This document shows positions 11,340 to 25,813 of a stretch of 25,813 bases of DNA, piece by piece. The notes under the pieces were generated by a model, which was given only the letters and a program-made list of their open reading frames with translations, was not told the origin of the DNA and searched no databases. Source of the DNA: a virus; IMG/VR virus record IMGVR_UViG_3300046808_000590, positions 1-25,813 of that record, one strand, 5' to 3'. How positions within the stretch are numbered: position 1 is the first letter of the stretch; each line of letters opens with the position of its first letter. The position numbers and the translations under genes are program-made.

Positions 11340-11665
11340 GTCCCAAGCCGTAACGCGTCCAAAATAAGCCCCGCACGCTCCTCCAGCGCCTCGGCCTGCT
11401 GACGCAGCCGAAGGAACGTGGCGACATCCATGTCGGTGGCATGCCGCCTGAACATCTGCGTCAGGCGCCCGTTCTTGCGCATTGGGGTAGACAGCACAGT
11501 TGTCTCAACCTGCCCGGCCTCGATGTAATCCCGTATCGCCTGCGCCTGCTCCATGAACTCCTGCGCCATCTGCTCGGTGGCTGGCATCTCCGTGAACACC
11601 GCGCTGCTGAACCGCCCCTGCCGGGTGATGCGGTACTGTTCCAGGTCCTCGTAATCGTATTTCAT
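11336..11665 (-). CDS. Hypothetical protein, helical
   Basis: This 109-aa protein is not recognised. It is mostly charged and helical, with two probable helices at about 30-52 (ATEQMAQEFMEQAQAIRDYIEAG) and about 75-105 (DVATFLRLRQQAEALEERAGLILDALRLG). There is no signal peptide, membrane segment or cysteine motif. The ATG at 11665 is chosen over an in-frame TTG three codons upstream because it overlaps the preceding stop as ATGA. It sits between the PAPS-reductase-like gene and a glycosyltransferase in the replication operon. Confidence 0.78.
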   Translation of the reverse strand: MKYDYEDLEQYRITRQGRFSSAVFTEMPATEQMAQEFMEQAQAIRDYIEAGQVETTVLSTPMRKNGRLTQMFRRHATDMDVATFLRLRQQAEALEERAGLILDALRLGT

Positions 11666-12540
11666 TCTTGGCAACTTGAATAAATGTCACATGATTCATC
11701 TTCGAATAGGTCGAACTGCACAGTCGTGTTTTGCCGCTCATCTCGCGCTGTGCCGTTCCATTTCTTTGCCGTTTCTAGCATCTCGGTCGCGCTGCGGTTG
11801 TGGCGGTACATGGTCATGCGCTCAGGTACGACCTTGCCCTTCTCCATCATAACGGCCTGCCGCTCCATCGGCACGAAATTCTCAAACCTCTCCATGCGCA
11901 ACGCAAAGTCGAAAATTGACGAATCTTCCTTGTATGCCGCAAATAGCGACCTGTCGCCCTTCTTGTAGCAACCCATGCAGTTGCCGAGATACGACGGTAT
12001 TTCTAGCCGAAAAGGCATCCCTGACCAGTACAAATTGACCCTCGGCTTATCCGTTGGTATCCAGCTAATGAGCGGATATACGATTTTGCGCTGCTTGGCT
12101 TCGACGCTCATCCGGTCGAACTCGTCTTTGCGAATGCCGATGGCGGTGTGGTAGTCCGCTCCCCAAAGGTCGATGGCGTACTTGCGAATGGGATTGGCCT
12201 TCAAATCTCCGCTGCACCATGGCGATGCTGGGTTAGGCAAGCCTCTTTTTTTTATGCCGCGCTCAAATGGCTCGCCGTTGCGGCTGGCCCCATGATAATC
12301 CGTGATCTTGTAGCCCACGCCCTCACCGTGCGCATTGGCGTGTGACTCAAGCCAAACCAAATCCAGACCGAAATGCCGGTCACATCGATGGGCAAATTCA
12401 AGAGTTTTCTCATGCTCCCAGCCTGTATTGGCAAAGACAAAAACCAACTCCGTAAAGCCTCGTTCATAGGCGTGTCGTTTCAGCCATTGGGCCATAAATG
12501 CAGAGGTTTCGCCTCCGCTGAAGGAGACCAGCAACTTCAT
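11662..12540 (-). CDS. PAPS-reductase-like ATP-pyrophosphatase (adenine nucleotide alpha hydrolase fold)
   Basis: This 292-aa protein begins with the PP-loop SFSGGETS (6-13), followed by FVFANTGWEHEKTLEF, which is typical of the phosphoadenosine phosphosulfate reductase family and of phage relatives of unknown substrate. Cys109 (SPWCSGDLK) and a CxxC pair (Cys188, Cys191 in GNCMGCYKKG) could bind a metal or take part in sulfur chemistry. The family activates a substrate with ATP; members include sulfate assimilation enzymes, tRNA thiolases and DndC of the phosphorothioate DNA system. No dndD or dndE partner is visible. The gene overlaps both neighbours as ATGA within the replication operon, suggesting a nucleic-acid modification or sulfur-supply role, which is inference. 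Confidence 0.88.
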   Translation of the reverse strand: MKLLVSFSGGETSAFMAQWLKRHAYERGFTELVFVFANTGWEHEKTLEFAHRCDRHFGLDLVWLESHANAHGEGVGYKITDYHGASRNGEPFERGIKKRGLPNPASPWCSGDLKANPIRKYAIDLWGADYHTAIGIRKDEFDRMSVEAKQRKIVYPLISWIPTDKPRVNLYWSGMPFRLEIPSYLGNCMGCYKKGDRSLFAAYKEDSSIFDFALRMERFENFVPMERQAVMMEKGKVVPERMTMYRHNRSATEMLETAKKWNGTARDERQNTTVQFDLFEDESCDIYSSCQE

Positions 12541-13211
12541 GGCTTCTTACGTTCTGCACGCATTTGTGCCCTGACCAATTGCCGCATCTGCTGCTTCACC
12601 TTGGCGTCCCGGCGGGCAACGTCACGGCGTGCCATGGCCTCACGTTCGTCAAACGTGATGCGGCCATCCGCGCCGGCGATGAATGTTGCCAGTGATCGCG
12701 GCGCACGCTCTCGGTCGCCGATGGCGTCCTGCAATGGCACTTGGAACAGCGTGGCCGTCTCTCGCTGGTGCGCTGTGGCCTGCTCGCCGTGCAGTTGACG
12801 CATGGCCTCCACCTTGCGCTCGTCGTAGGCTTGAAAGCACTGTATCAACCACTCAAGGTTGGTGTTGTTGTAATGCTTCTGCACCCGGCCCGCCTCCATC
12901 TCGTAGAGGCACAGTTTCCAATCCTCAAGCGTGAAGTTGCCGAACTCATCGGTCAGCCGCTTGGCAGCCCGTGCAATGCCTTCCTCGCTCTTGATGCCGT
13001 TTGGCGCGCCTATCATTTCCAGCGTAGCGGATAGCAGTTTGACCAATGCTGCTCGCGTGGCTTCCGGCTGCTCCCGTAATGCCCTCTGGACGTTAGCCCC
13101 AAATATCGCGGTCCTTAAGGACGTCGGAGGGGTGTTTGTACTTACCGCTTGAATGGAAGTAACTACCATTCCTCTTCCCGGACTTGTTCCAACCGTTGTT
13201 AGCTGATTCAT
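12537..13211 (-). CDS. Hypothetical replication-operon protein
   Basis: This 224-aa protein is not firmly recognised. The central part (TLEDWKLCLYEMEAGRVQKHYNNTNLEWLIQCFQAYDERKVEAMRQLHGE) resembles proteins encoded directly after the initiator in phages of Bacteroidota. The C-terminal 45 residues are very basic (REAMARRDVARRDAKVKQQMRQLVRAQMRAERKKP), likely a nucleic-acid-binding helix. The ATG at 13211 makes it overlap the preceding gene by 119 bases, unusually long here. A second ATG at 13169 would still overlap by 77 bases, and no later start precedes the conserved region. By position it could act in replication, for example as a helicase-loader-like factor, but no loader motif is visible. 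Confidence 0.72.
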   Translation of the reverse strand: MNQLTTVGTSPGRGMVVTSIQAVSTNTPPTSLRTAIFGANVQRALREQPEATRAALVKLLSATLEMIGAPNGIKSEEGIARAAKRLTDEFGNFTLEDWKLCLYEMEAGRVQKHYNNTNLEWLIQCFQAYDERKVEAMRQLHGEQATAHQRETATLFQVPLQDAIGDRERAPRSLATFIAGADGRITFDEREAMARRDVARRDAKVKQQMRQLVRAQMRAERKKP

Positions 13212-13854
13212 CTTGGTATTTGCTTTCTCGTTGTATCCAATCTCTTGCTGTGGCCTTCCAGTCCTTCATGGGCTTTCTGGCCTTGCCAATAACCCACCCG
13301 ACGCTTTCGTAGTAGTTGTAAAACCGCTCGCCCAAGTCGGAGGTCTGACCGGCCGCCACGAAGGCGTCAATAACCGTCTGGAGGTCTTTTGGGGTTGCCT
13401 CTTTTTTTGGTTTGGCCTCTATACTCTTTGATACTTCTTTACTTATTCTATTCTCTTCTATACTCTCCGCAACTGTGGTTGCTTCTTGGCGCATCTCTGG
13501 GCGCAACTTTTGCGCCTCTGGTTGCAACTCTTGCGCCTCTGGTTGCTTGCGCCTCTGGTTGCTTGTTCCTGTAGGCGCAACTTTTGCGCCTGTAGGCGCA
13601 ACTTCGACAGACAGGCGTCGCTTGTGGCCGTAACCCTCGGTCACGATGTGGCCGCTTTGCTCCAACTGATGACGCATCTTGCGGACGTGCTGCGGAGTGC
13701 AGCGCAGAGATTCAGCCAGGAAGTGGTCGCCCGCCCAACTCGCTCCGTCCTGCTTGCTCAATGCCGCCAAGCGAGCAAGAAACACGCGATGGAGCGGTGG
13801 AAGGTCAAGCGCCCATATTTCGGCAGGCAGCCAGATGCCGTTGGCCTCGTTCAT
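13093..13854 (-). CDS. Winged-helix replication initiation-like protein
   Basis: This 253-aa protein probably initiates phage DNA replication. Residues about 1-80 form a winged helix like those of phage replisome organisers (LPPLHRVFLARLAALSK...FLAESLRCTPQHVRKMRHQLEQSGHIV). A low-complexity linker (85-155) rich in Gln, Glu, Pro and Lys follows. Residues about 155-205 (LQTVIDAFVAAG...FYNYYESVGWVIGKARKPMKDWKATARDWI) are a C-terminal module common in such proteins. The linker DNA carries the repeated sequences listed separately, so the origin may lie inside the gene, as in phage lambda O. It starts six bases after the ribbon-helix-helix gene and no helicase or polymerase gene accompanies it, so host enzymes must be recruited. 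Confidence 0.87.
   Translation of the reverse strand: MNEANGIWLPAEIWALDLPPLHRVFLARLAALSKQDGASWAGDHFLAESLRCTPQHVRKMRHQLEQSGHIVTEGYGHKRRLSVEVAPTGAKVAPTGTSNQRRKQPEAQELQPEAQKLRPEMRQEATTVAESIEENRISKEVSKSIEAKPKKEATPKDLQTVIDAFVAAGQTSDLGERFYNYYESVGWVIGKARKPMKDWKATARDWIQRESKYQDESANNGWNKSGKRNGSYFHSSGKYKHPSDVLKDRDIWG
13500..13590. repeat. Iteron-like repeats in the initiator gene: candidate replication origin
   Basis: Three perfect 16-bp copies of TTGCGCCTCTGGTTGC lie at 13510-13525, 13531-13546 and 13547-13562. They are flanked by two perfect 17-bp palindromes GGCGCAACTTTTGCGCC at 13500-13516 and 13574-13590. The second and third 16-mers are 16 bases apart and the palindromes 74 bases apart, so the identical DNA is read in different frames. 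The repeats are therefore conserved as DNA, not as peptide. Confidence 0.7.
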
Positions 13855-13859
13855 CGCGG

Positions 13860-14003
13860 TCAGGATTTCAGGCCTTTTTCAAGCGCCTCACGGACGACGT
13901 CGCTAAACTTCCGCTTGCTGAATTTGGCAATCGTCAGGGCCAGTTCTCGCGTCTCTTCCGTGACGCGGATGTGGATGTTCTTTGGGTAGTTGTTGGCTTT
14001 CAT
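13860..14003 (-). CDS. Ribbon-helix-helix (Arc/CopG-like) DNA-binding protein
   Basis: This is a 47-aa gene. The protein has the minimal ribbon-helix-helix layout: a short strand with alternating residues (NIHIRVTEE, 9-17), helix 1 (TRELALTIAKFSK, 18-30), and helix 2 starting at the conserved turn KFSDVVREALEKGL (32-45). Such proteins dimerise, insert the strand pair into the DNA major groove and usually repress their own promoter. It is the first gene of the replication operon, directly downstream of a promoter flanked by a perfect inverted repeat. The stop lies five bases before the initiator start. A role as autoregulator or early/late switch is inferred. Confidence 0.87.
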   Translation of the reverse strand: MKANNYPKNIHIRVTEETRELALTIAKFSKRKFSDVVREALEKGLKS

Positions 14004-14007
14004 GTCG

Positions 14008-14039
14008 CAATGTTACACCGATATACTTTCCCATCCAAA
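14008..14039 (-). promoter_or_regulatory. Bacteroidota-type promoter of the replication operon
   Basis: On the minus strand TTTG (14039-14036) is followed after 20 bases by TAACATTG (14015-14008), one mismatch from the Bacteroidota -7 consensus TAnnTTTG at a standard spacing. The ATG of the ribbon-helix-helix gene is only four bases past the -7 element, so the transcript would be nearly leaderless. Confidence 0.62.
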
Positions 14040-14053
14040 CATTCCGTGTAACA
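14011..14053. promoter_or_regulatory. Candidate operator: perfect 8-bp inverted repeat flanking the promoter
   Basis: TGTTACAC (14011-14018) and its exact reverse complement GTGTAACA (14046-14053) are 27 bases apart. The inner arm overlaps the -7 element and the outer arm lies just upstream of the -33 element, so bound protein would cover the promoter. The adjacent ribbon-helix-helix gene is the obvious candidate ligand. Confidence 0.6.
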
Positions 14054-14060
14054 AGTTATG

Positions 14061-14094
14061 AACAACAAAAAAGGCGACCCGTAGGCCGCCCTTT
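14061..14094 (-). terminator. Rho-independent terminator with UACG tetraloop
   Basis: On the minus strand AAAGGGCGGCC (14094-14084) pairs with GGTCGCCTTTT (14079-14069) through two G-U wobbles, enclosing the tetraloop TACG in a C(UACG)G context. The run of six T (14072-14067) both closes the stem and forms the tract, which continues as GTTGTT. It ends the operon that starts at about 17030 and separates it from the replication operon. Confidence 0.85.
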
Positions 14095-14107: not shown

Positions 14108-14284
14108 TCAGCACTCCGCCCCGTCGATTTCCAGCCGTCGCATCCGCACCGCCGCCGCCAAGGTGTTGGCGTCGATGCCACCGACCTGCTCGAATTGATA
14201 CGCGAAGCGCAGCAACTCCTCCGGCTCGTGTTTGAGCCATCGGGATAGGGTGGAGCGGCTTACGCCGAAGCAGTCAGCCGCCAC
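14108..14284 (-). CDS. Small helix-turn-helix protein
   Basis: This is a peptide of about 58 aa with a helix-turn-helix at its N-terminus (VAADCFGVSRSTLSRWLKHEPEEL), the pattern of MerR/Fis-like or terminase-like DNA-binding motifs, then two short helices. The start is uncertain. The GTG at 14284 is proposed because the frame upstream is covered by another gene and no ATG is suitably placed; it overlaps that gene by 11 bases. It is the last gene before the terminator. A transcriptional regulator role is plausible but not shown. Confidence 0.6.
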   Translation of the reverse strand: MAADCFGVSRSTLSRWLKHEPEELLRFAYQFEQVGGIDANTLAAAVRMRRLEIDGAEC

Positions 14285-14462
14285 CGTAACGCTGATAAAG
14301 CATTGCCTCGTGATCTGGGTCGCTGGGTTGGGTCGTAAAGCGGAGGCGATAAGGAAGCGACCTCGCTTTGACGCTTTGGAGGAACTTGCGGAAAGCTGGT
14401 TCATTATCTGTGTAAGAGATGTGAGCATCGTGGTCAATTAGATGCACGGTGTACGTGACCAT
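14274..14462 (-). CDS. Hypothetical protein, 62 aa
   Basis: Not recognised. It is a small soluble protein with a beta start (MVTYTVHLIDHDAHISYTDN), a short helix (EPAFRKFLQSVKAR) and a glycine-ending tail. The ATG at 14462 lies 13 bases after the stop of the DUF3127-like gene and is preferred to an in-frame ATG at 14504 that would overlap that gene by 29 bases. It has no membrane segment or cysteine motif. It is co-transcribed with the ssDNA-binding and exonuclease genes. Confidence 0.65.
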   Translation of the reverse strand: MVTYTVHLIDHDAHISYTDNEPAFRKFLQSVKARSLPYRLRFTTQPSDPDHEAMLYQRYGGG

Positions 14463-17020: not shown

Positions 17021-17038
17021 TTTCTTTGTTTGATGTGC

Positions 17039-17069
17039 CAAAGATAGGTCAATGCGTCTCACGTGCAAC
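17039..17069 (-). promoter_or_regulatory. Bacteroidota-type promoter of the early/recombination unit
   Basis: On the minus strand TATCTTTG (17046-17039) matches the -7 consensus TAnnTTTG exactly, with GTTG (17069-17066) 19 bases upstream as the -33 element. It sits between the late terminator and the ATG at 17020, giving a short leader ending AAACAAAGAAA with no Shine-Dalgarno sequence. Confidence 0.7.
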
Positions 17070-17087
17070 ACACCAGCGTAATTTTAA

Positions 17088-17122
17088 CAAATAAAAAACG
17101 CCCCCCACGTTTGGGGAGCGTT
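17088..17122 (-). terminator. Rho-independent terminator of the late operon
   Basis: On the minus strand AACGCTCCCC (17122-17113) pairs with GGGGGGCGTT (17106-17097) with one G-U wobble across a 6-base loop, then TTTTTATTTGTT follows. It lies after the last lysis-cassette gene and just before the next promoter. Confidence 0.9.
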
Positions 17123-17172
17123 CCAAGTTATCAAACATGAAAAAGAAACAACGCCCTGATGGAGGCGCTAAT

Positions 17173-23853: not shown

Positions 23854-24374
23854 TAGTTGTTGTTATTGTTGAACGTAGCGTCGTTGGTGTCGAGAACCGC
23901 CTTGTAGATGGTCCCGTCGCCCTCAAAGTTAACCGAGAACGAGGCCACTTCGTTCAACCCCGCACTCTCTTCGTACGTGGTGATGTAGCCCTTGCCCCAG
24001 TACATGATGTCCCCATCCACGCCCGTGGTCCAAGCCAACTTGATTTTGGTCTTGTTTTTCCAGAGCGTGAACAGGTCGGCGCCGGACTTCACGCTGCTGG
24101 ACAGGCCGTACTCGATGAGGCCGTCGCACGCCATTGTCCAGGACAGCGATGAGGTGAGGATTTCCCGCTCTCCGTCGTTGTCTTTGGTGGTGGCGTCGAT
24201 GACTTCCATCGAGCCGCTGAACGTGCCGGACGTCGCGCAGGCGACGATTTCCCACGTGTCGTTCTCGCTCGTGTTGTCTCCGTAAGTTCCGCCGCTGAAA
24301 GTGCCGCTATTGGCGCTCTCGTTGCTGATGTAAATGCCGATGGCATTACTCCTGATTTTCCCCGTTGTAGGCAT
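23853..24374 (-). CDS. Major tail (tube) protein
   Basis: This 173-aa protein is of the TP901-1 tube type: MPTTGKIRSNAIGIYISNES start, Gly/Ser/Thr-rich strands (GTFSGG, SGTFSGSMEVIDATTKDNDGEREILTSSLSWTMACDGL) and a C-terminal strand pair (GLNEVASFSVNFEGDGTIYKA). It ends in an unusual run of five Asn. Length is normal. Position directly before the chaperones and tape measure supports the call. Its first 29 bases overlap the end of the glycosyltransferase gene in another frame. Confidence 0.9.
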   Translation of the reverse strand: MPTTGKIRSNAIGIYISNESANSGTFSGGTYGDNTSENDTWEIVACATSGTFSGSMEVIDATTKDNDGEREILTSSLSWTMACDGLIEYGLSSSVKSGADLFTLWKNKTKIKLAWTTGVDGDIMYWGKGYITTYEESAGLNEVASFSVNFEGDGTIYKAVLDTNDATFNNNNN

Positions 24375-25095
24375 GGTGATCTAAATTTTGAAAGGATTTG
24401 AGTTGTGAAAGTTCGGGAAAGCTGCCGACCACCTCCGTCGGTGGGAACCGATCGGTCTTGCGCGCAAACCCCTCGAACTTGTTGATGTTCTCTTTGGTCT
24501 TCAGGTCAATGATGAGCGGCGTCTTGGTCTTGAGCAGGTACGTCAACTGGTCCGTGCAGCGCCAAATGTTCGCCCTAAACGACGCGTCCATTCCGCTCAT
24601 CAGTTCGCCGTCGTAGCACCGCCCCAAATGCTTTTGGCATTTGACCAGCAACTCGCGTCTGGTGCATCGCCCGACGTTGCTTTGACCCCGCCCCCCGAAT
24701 AGATGCGTGCGCCCGGTGGCTGCGTCGATGATGTAGAACTGGTCGTGTGCAATCCATGCCCGCCCGGCCTTGAGTTCCTTGGCCATCAACTCCGCCCAAT
24801 CTTCGCGCAGGATGTTGTCCGAGCAGTACTCCATGAAGTAGTCGAACTCAAGGTTGCGCAGCATCCACCGCAGGCCCATCTCGAACTTGGTGCCGATGGG
24901 CGAGTTCTTGAAGGGGAAGTGCAGGTAGCCGCGCTTTTCGCAGACGGCAGGCAGGTCTTTGTCGTCGCCAATCACCACCACCTCCGTCTCGATGCCGAGG
25001 CGTTTGAACTGCTCGCGCACCCGGTCGAGCGCGTCCATCGCAATGTTGCGAATGCGGGCGCGCTTGTACACGGGAAAGTGAATTGCAACCTTCAT
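24346..25095 (-). CDS. Glycosyltransferase, GT-A fold, in the tail module
   Basis: This 249-aa protein opens MKVAIHFPVYKRARIRNIAMDAL, followed by EVVVIGDD, a GT-A nucleotide-sugar-binding pattern. SDN at 92-94 (YFMEYCSDNILRED) takes the place of the DxD metal-binding motif. HDQFYIIDAATGRTHLFGG...GMDASFRANIW resembles the acceptor-side region of small family 2 enzymes. No membrane segment is present. It sits between a 44-aa basic protein and the tail tube, overlapping the tube gene by 29 bases, so it may decorate a virion protein. It is not closely similar to the other glycosyltransferase at 10686-11339. Confidence 0.83.
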   Translation of the reverse strand: MKVAIHFPVYKRARIRNIAMDALDRVREQFKRLGIETEVVVIGDDKDLPAVCEKRGYLHFPFKNSPIGTKFEMGLRWMLRNLEFDYFMEYCSDNILREDWAELMAKELKAGRAWIAHDQFYIIDAATGRTHLFGGRGQSNVGRCTRRELLVKCQKHLGRCYDGELMSGMDASFRANIWRCTDQLTYLLKTKTPLIIDLKTKENINKFEGFARKTDRFPPTEVVGSFPELSQLKSFQNLDHHAYNGENQE

Positions 25096-25390: not shown

Positions 25391-25779
25391 GGCTCAGCAG
25401 GAAACCAACCTTCCGCGATCATAAATGCCTCGTCCCTGACCGTGACCGTGCTTGGCACGATGTGCCTAAAGGGGAACGCCTTGCTGCTAAAAATCACCTG
25501 CATCAGCGTCATGCGCTCCGCGTCGGTAATCTCCGGGAACAACGACACCAGCCGCTCCAACGTGACCAGCGGATGCACCGGGATGACGTAGTCCAAATCC
25601 ACCTGCAACGCTGCCCTGCCGTCCGTCGGGTGGTGGATGATGCCGAACACCGTGCCGTCGTGTTGGTCGGGGCTTTGGAATTGCAGGGGCAGCGTGATGC
25701 AGTACAGTTCGCGGGTGATGAACTGCGCTCGCTGCGGGCTTGTTAAAATCCCTTCGGGGCGGACGATGATAAATTGCAT
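25387..25779 (-). CDS. Hypothetical tail-region protein, 130 aa
   Basis: Not recognised. It is a soluble protein with a beta-rich N-terminal half (MQFIIVRPEGILTS...RELYCITLPLQFQSPDQHDGTVFGIIHHPTDGR) and a mixed C-terminal half (LERLVSLFPEITDAERMTLMQVIF...DEAFMIAEGWFP). It has one cysteine and no signal or membrane segment. It starts in the stop of the adhesin gene (TAATG) and ends in ATGA with the dockerin-like gene. The first 71 codons are repeated at the left edge of the window with synonymous changes, so the sequence is under protein-level selection. Confidence 0.85.
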   Translation of the reverse strand: MQFIIVRPEGILTSPQRAQFITRELYCITLPLQFQSPDQHDGTVFGIIHHPTDGRAALQVDLDYVIPVHPLVTLERLVSLFPEITDAERMTLMQVIFSSKAFPFRHIVPSTVTVRDEAFMIAEGWFPAEP

Positions 25780-25813
25780 TAGTAGACGTTGAAATAGTCG
25801 TTGAGGGCGGATT
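25567..25813. repeat. Terminal direct repeat, right copy
   Basis: Same sequence as 1-247 except for 8 substitutions. It covers the first part of the 130-aa gene and the last codons of the adhesin gene. Confidence 0.93.
25779..25813 (-). CDS. C-terminal end of the adhesin gene (second copy)
   Basis: The last codons (ALNDYFNVY, stop) of the 799-aa protein at 213-2612, cut by the right edge of the window. It is identical to the left copy and confirms that the sequence continues across the junction. Confidence 0.85.
   Translation of the reverse strand, partial: SALNDYFNVY

Follow-up and report, generated by a model that had tools for sequence, protein, structure and literature searches.

A ribbon-helix-helix gene ahead of the replication initiator of an apparently lytic phage: a probable autorepressor in an exchanged cassette

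Genes and features of the replication locus

The sequence analysed is a 25,813-bp virus record from IMG/VR, the whole of which is referred to here as the window. Its two ends (1-247 and 25567-25813) share a 247-bp overlap with 96.8% identity, which makes it probable that the genome is complete, at about 25.6 kb, and circularly permuted or terminally redundant; the record was perhaps assembled from mixed strains. Genes on the minus strand encode a terminase, a tape measure protein, a portal, a protease-capsid fusion, an M15 peptidase, exonuclease VIII and an SSB-like protein. Among the scanned genes of the window, several of which had no match, neither an integrase nor a CI-like repressor was recognised, and on this gene content the phage is apparently strictly lytic. 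Searches for tRNA genes and Rfam families returned nothing. The replication locus reads leftwards and comprises the following features.

14108-14437, minus strand: upstream helix-turn-helix (HTH) gene, the last before the terminator (profile and contig scan)
14068-14095, minus strand: intrinsic terminator that ends the upstream operon, immediately ahead of the RHH promoter (terminator scan)
14046-14053: left arm of the inverted repeat, GTGTAACA on the plus strand, upstream of the -33 element (repeat search)
14036-14039, minus strand: -33 promoter element TTTG (sequence; consensus from PMC7366714)
14011-14018: right arm, TGTTACAC on the plus strand, overlapping the -7 box, with an internal dyad TGT-N-ACA (repeat search)
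14008-14015, minus strand: -7 box of the promoter, TAACATTG, occupying -12 to -5 when counted from the A of the ATG (box position from PMC9723704)
13860-14003, minus strand: 47-aa ribbon-helix-helix (RHH) gene, MKANNYPKNIHIRVTEETRELALTIAKFSKRKFSDVVREALEKGLKS (open reading frame, relatives, fold)
13467-14063: swapped cassette of promoter, RHH gene, initiator DNA-binding half and iterons (DNA comparison)
13495-13565: 16-bp and 21-bp tandem repeats within the initiator gene, probable origin iterons (repeat search)
13395-13474: A+T-rich stretch adjoining the iterons, 53-70% A+T per 40-bp interval (composition)
13093-13854, minus strand: lambda-O-like replication initiator with a winged-helix N-terminal half and a conserved C-terminal half (PHROG, alignment)

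The small RHH gene had been proposed in an earlier note made from the sequence alone, and it is borne out by homologues of equal length at the same place in related phages, by a predominance of third-position changes and by a fold match. The ATG at 14003 is its sole possible start, since an in-frame TAA sits just upstream. Changes at codon positions 1, 2 and 3 number 3, 1 and 10 between the relatives L007 and L008, and 11, 7 and 27 between L002 and L008; as third positions hold most of the changes, these reading frames are coding genes. The AlphaFold monomer model of the window protein (mean pLDDT 77) places two helices, at residues 16-29 and 33-46, behind an extended N-terminus. The N-terminal strand receives no DSSP assignment in this monomer model, as would be expected if it forms in the dimer alone, and the predicted model has the strand-helix-helix fold of the RHH superfamily. 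The top matches in a structural search were nearly all RHH proteins (ORF56, TacA1, Arc, AmrZ, CopG and PutA), with VIA Z up to 5.7 across 38-47 residues.

On curated profiles, whose scores are a practical criterion for the RHH superfamily and not a defining biochemical feature, the window protein reached no Pfam or NCBIfam cut-off: DUF6290 scored 18.1 bits against a cut-off of 27, and the NCBIfam ORF56 and RelB profiles 18-19 bits against 50. The runner-up among the NCBIfam profiles was ORF56 plasmid copy control (E 0.0018, far under cut-off). The homologous protein of L002 passes the NikA-like profile, with 28.4 against a cut-off of 27. The window protein shares 43% identity with its L265 homologue and 28% with those of L002, L003, L007 and L008. 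The exposed strand residues of Arc are Q9, N11 and R13; the aligned residues are N9/H11/R13 in the window, I9/A11/R13 in L265 and L9/G11/R13 in L002, so that R13 is constant among the compared proteins and positions 9 and 11 vary. This variation agrees with a shifting operator specificity, of which it is no proof. A protein search of phage records found no homologues of the RHH protein, the same query had no match in viral contigs, where the relatives were reached via other genes, and a PDB sequence search gave spurious matches only. A profile built from five RHH proteins had one good match among the collected loci (L151, E 0.0001).

The following gene had been taken for the initiator, and this holds: it is co-oriented with the RHH gene across a gap of 5 nt, and its 253-aa product matches PHROG replication-initiation families (E 1e-7 to 1e-5). 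The RHH gene therefore lies directly upstream of the initiator gene and reads in the same direction, as is required of a cop-rep operon; in L007, L008 and L265 the junction is overlapping or nearly so. The tandem repeats inside the initiator gene are probably the iterons of the origin, and the A+T-rich stretch at 13395-13474 is probably its unwinding region. Repeats of 21 bp also occur in L002, L265 and L008, those of L002 having a different sequence.

Promoter, predicted leaderless start and inverted repeat

The sigma-A box of Flavobacterium psychrophilum, TAnnTTTG or the variant form TAnnTTGY, occupies -12 to -5 relative to the transcription start (PMC9723704), and Bacteroides promoters add a TTTG near -33 (PMC7366714). 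The leftward-reading promoter claimed in the earlier note, TTTG (14039-14036), 20 nt and TAACATTG (14015-14008), is present ahead of the RHH gene. Measured against TAnnTTTG plus TTTG, its TTTG is exact, spanning -36 to -33 from the ATG, and TAACATTG has one mismatch. The TTTG-N20-box pattern has two matches in the whole window (0.57 expected), one of which is this promoter. The box stands exactly at -12 to -5 from the RHH ATG in the window and in all five relatives that carry the gene, as TAACTTGG in L002 and L003, as TAACTTGC, of the TAnnTTGY form, in L007 and L008, and as a perfect TACATTTG without TTTG in L265. Of the 2027 ATG triplets that the six sequences contain, 7 have a box at this position when the search pattern is widened to admit the TAACATTG, TAACTTGG and TAACTTGC variants, one in each relative and two in the window. 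Judged from this conservation, the promoter is real. With the -7 box at precisely this distance from the ATG, the RHH mRNA should be leaderless, beginning at its AUG. A sigma-70 scan missed the promoter, as is expected for a box of the Bacteroidota type. A GC hairpin with a T run lies at the position of the window terminator in the RHH-bearing relatives.

The second such ATG of the window, at 25095, opens the gene at 24346-25095; it has TACATTTG at -12 to -5, a box retained in L060 and L083, and its message is likewise predicted to be leaderless. A further early promoter, at 17021-17172, has a terminator-like hairpin followed by a perfect TATCTTTG box that serves the early recombination operon; the box is identical in L003, and L002 has an extra gene there instead. 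We considered TGTTGCAC at this promoter (17063-17070) as a second operator and rejected it, since L003, with a different RHH protein, has the same sequence. The promoter boxes, the perfect TATCTTTG at the recombination operon and the scarcity of Shine-Dalgarno-like sequences (ahead of 3 of the 31 starts taken, some of them placed approximately) point to a member of the Bacteroidota as host. A host search with the terminase gave distant matches across many phyla and no host.

The inverted repeat said to flank this promoter was confirmed, with exact arms 27 bp apart. Its 8-mer occurs nowhere else in the 25.8-kb window, and each arm contains TGT-N-ACA, a dyad in its own right. Five bases of the -7 box fall within the right arm (-15 to -8 from the ATG); the left one (-50 to -43) lies about 6-7 bp upstream of TTTG without overlap. 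The proposal that the arms would block both promoter elements thus stands for the -7 box and fails for TTTG. A perfect inverted repeat of at least 8 bp appeared in the 64-bp leader in 45 of 2000 dinucleotide shuffles (2.3%), and 8-bp arms 20-40 bp apart are in no excess across the window (15 found, 12.6 expected). A scan of viral contigs for TGTTACAC-N25-29-GTGTAACA returned 67 stretches, which we took as roughly the chance number, not computed exactly. An inverted repeat is therefore present at the RHH promoter, as in cop-rep operons, with modest statistics: it is real and well placed, yet weak on statistics alone, and the comparison with relatives carries the case.

The perfect 8-bp repeat is confined to the window, and relatives retain at most a GTTA/TAAC core. 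A GTTA-N32/33-TAAC dyad is found in the window, in L002/L003 and in L007/L008. At the left arm position L008 keeps TGTTACAC and L007 has TGTTACAG. The GTTA of the window is farther from the terminator than that of the other lineages. Because TAAC belongs to the promoter box, the left half alone is independent evidence, and because L002/L003 are moreover alignable with L007/L008, the dyad amounts to about one independent coincidence, at roughly 1% by our own estimate. L265 is without the dyad and has a short palindrome in the spacer, AATACG-GAA-CGTATT, with a 19% chance of arising.

Relatives and exchange of the cassette

Relatives were found by scanning viral contigs with the SSB, initiator, HTH and terminase proteins. 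SSB identity to the window is 97% for L002/L003, 64% for L007/L008 and 46% for the L113 type; L265 was also recovered. A 46-47-aa RHH gene lies between terminator and initiator in L002, L003, L007, L008 and L265, and the layout of terminator, promoter, 46-47-aa RHH gene and initiator is, on sequence comparison, conserved in these five relatives from three other lineages. In the L113 type the RHH gene is absent and the initiator, with a similar N-terminus, comes directly behind the HTH gene; no terminator or promoter was seen on inspection of that junction. The terminator-promoter-RHH block therefore behaves as one unit, found whole or missing altogether, and control by the RHH protein is dispensable.

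Between the window and L002/L003, DNA similarity stops at 14064 and restarts at 13466. No DNA similarity to L002/L003 was found within the cassette at 13467-14063; its flanks are about 92% identical for L003, and the C-terminal half of the initiator is nearly identical in L002/L003. L007 and L008 pair an L002-like RHH protein with a window-like initiator N-terminus, from which it follows that the two also recombine apart; strict co-inheritance of RHH type with initiator type was rejected on this ground. In L002/L003 two small genes of no clear family (76 aa and shorter; 5956-6284 in L002), absent from the window, lie between the RHH gene and the initiator.

Candidate autorepression, its alternatives and known systems

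The arrangement is probably best explained by a CopG/ORF56-like autorepressor that limits or times the phage replication operon. The terminator would insulate the Bacteroidota-type promoter TTTG-N20-TAACATTG from the upstream operon, and transcription would begin with the first base of the RHH start codon, so that a message with no leader would encode first the RHH protein and next the initiator. As a dimer joined through its N-terminal strand (residues 9-14), the RHH protein would bind in the promoter region, with the TGTTACAC/GTGTAACA arms as its likeliest site; an occupied arm over the -7 box would exclude RNA polymerase and so limit initiator synthesis, much as CopG does on repB and as proposed for ORF56 on orf904. 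The word "autoregulated" in the earlier note was a reasonable guess. Its "switch for replication", understood as a two-state decision, found no support in a genome with overlapping ends and no recognised integrase or CI-like repressor, and a negative-feedback limiter or early shut-off fits the data better. Neither the predicted leaderless start nor the swapped cassette was noticed in the earlier note.

The exact operator is less certain than autorepression of the replication operon. The RHH protein may repress its own promoter through another sequence, for example in the spacer or at one TGT-N-ACA arm, that over the -7 box, in which case the left arm would be due to chance. We consider this unlikely, if by no means negligible. 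In its favour, the significance of the repeat in shuffles goes no further than 2.3%, the repeat is missing as such in the relatives, 36 bp (3.4 turns) separate the centres of its arms, when RHH operators usually have contiguous or closely spaced half-sites, and the sole palindrome of L265 falls within the spacer. Against it, both copies of the 8-mer in 25.8 kb are at the RHH promoter, and the spacing between GTTA and the box is kept in a lineage with an RHH protein of 28% identity.

It is improbable that the RHH protein acts elsewhere (at a host promoter, as a free antitoxin or as an anti-CRISPR-associated regulator), its place before the initiator being incidental to replication. Sub-threshold matches to the NCBIfam RelB antitoxin profile, the two extra genes that separate RHH and initiator in L002/L003 and the lack of the RHH gene in the L113 type would suit such a role; however, no toxin gene was found beside the RHH gene in the window, where the neighbour is the initiator, PADLOC returned nothing for the RHH protein, and in 5 of 5 relatives with the gene it comes first in the unit behind the same kind of promoter. 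Most improbable of all, the arms could be the target of the upstream HTH protein or of a host regulator, with the RHH gene a mere passenger in the operon. The HTH gene is adjacent and is retained before the initiator where the RHH gene is missing, but its product is 95% identical in L002/L003, whose promoter is without the TGTTACAC repeat, and the repeat varies along with the RHH protein and not with the HTH protein.

The proposed RHH autorepressor resembles several known systems in part. Like the window initiator, lambda O has a DNA-binding N-terminus and a gene with iterons and an A+T-rich stretch inside it, and for both the N-terminus and the origin are exchanged jointly while the C-terminus stays constant. 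Lambda O is controlled by CI, Cro and CII, with no RHH gene ahead of it. Arc of phage P22 is also a phage RHH protein of about 50 aa, with a fold match to the window protein and exposed strand residues 9, 11 and 13 that align, but what it controls in that temperate phage is the antirepressor region and not a replication operon.

In plasmid pMV158 a minimal RHH gene comes first and the initiator second behind a single promoter, as in the window, and CopG acts on the promoter of its own operon, limiting the initiator RepB (PMC5703833). Unlike the window, pMV158 is a plasmid, an antisense RNA also acts on repB, and four CopG dimers bind cooperatively at their operator; the window protein, for its part, reaches no CopG-family cut-off. 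Plasmid pRN1 similarly has an RHH gene, that of ORF56, ahead of the replication-protein gene orf904, with which it is co-transcribed, and ORF56 is a proposed binder of its own promoter (PMC3869888). ORF56 is both the best Foldseek match of the window protein and a weak NCBIfam match. However, pRN1 is an archaeal plasmid with a primase-helicase-polymerase, and its proposed origin is 3' of the replication gene, whereas the window iterons are inside the initiator gene. Leaderless repressor mRNAs are known for lambda cI and for cI and cro of PY54 (PMC4488713). As in the window, the promoter of a phage regulator abuts the start codon and the message runs from the AUG, but those regulators are not RHH proteins, the phages are temperate and the starts were measured there and are predicted here.

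If the autorepressor reading is correct, an apparently lytic phage makes use of plasmid-style copy control, with a minimal RHH repressor before the initiator, and does so by way of a leaderless message in a Bacteroidota-type host group where such messages make up about 4-6% of mRNAs (PMC9723704, PMC7366714). The RHH genes and promoters exchanged among these phages would then form a natural series in which to follow how RHH specificity and operator sequence co-vary. It is a rather doubtful further thought that the cassette at 13467-14063 is an exchangeable specificity module, whose RHH protein might block the replication of co-infecting phages with the same operator and not that of swapped siblings, so defining a superinfection-exclusion (immunity-like) group in a lytic phage without lysogeny. 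In such a module operator, RHH protein, initiator DNA-binding half and iterons would be exchanged between sibling phages, with the leaderless promoter layout and the initiator C-terminus fixed.

Two other observations concern neighbouring and unrelated genes. In the unrelated phage L262 a NikA-like RHH gene (2501-2692) stands two genes ahead of a primase-helicase-like gene, an order that appears similar to the RHH-initiator order of the window in another replication type. The window also has a PAPS-reductase-like gene at 11662-12540 (PADLOC SspD, E 3e-11), which is not at this place in L002; the same slot in L003 (7602-8486) holds an apparent DNA cytosine methyltransferase gene, and the site is perhaps an accessory slot for DNA modification.
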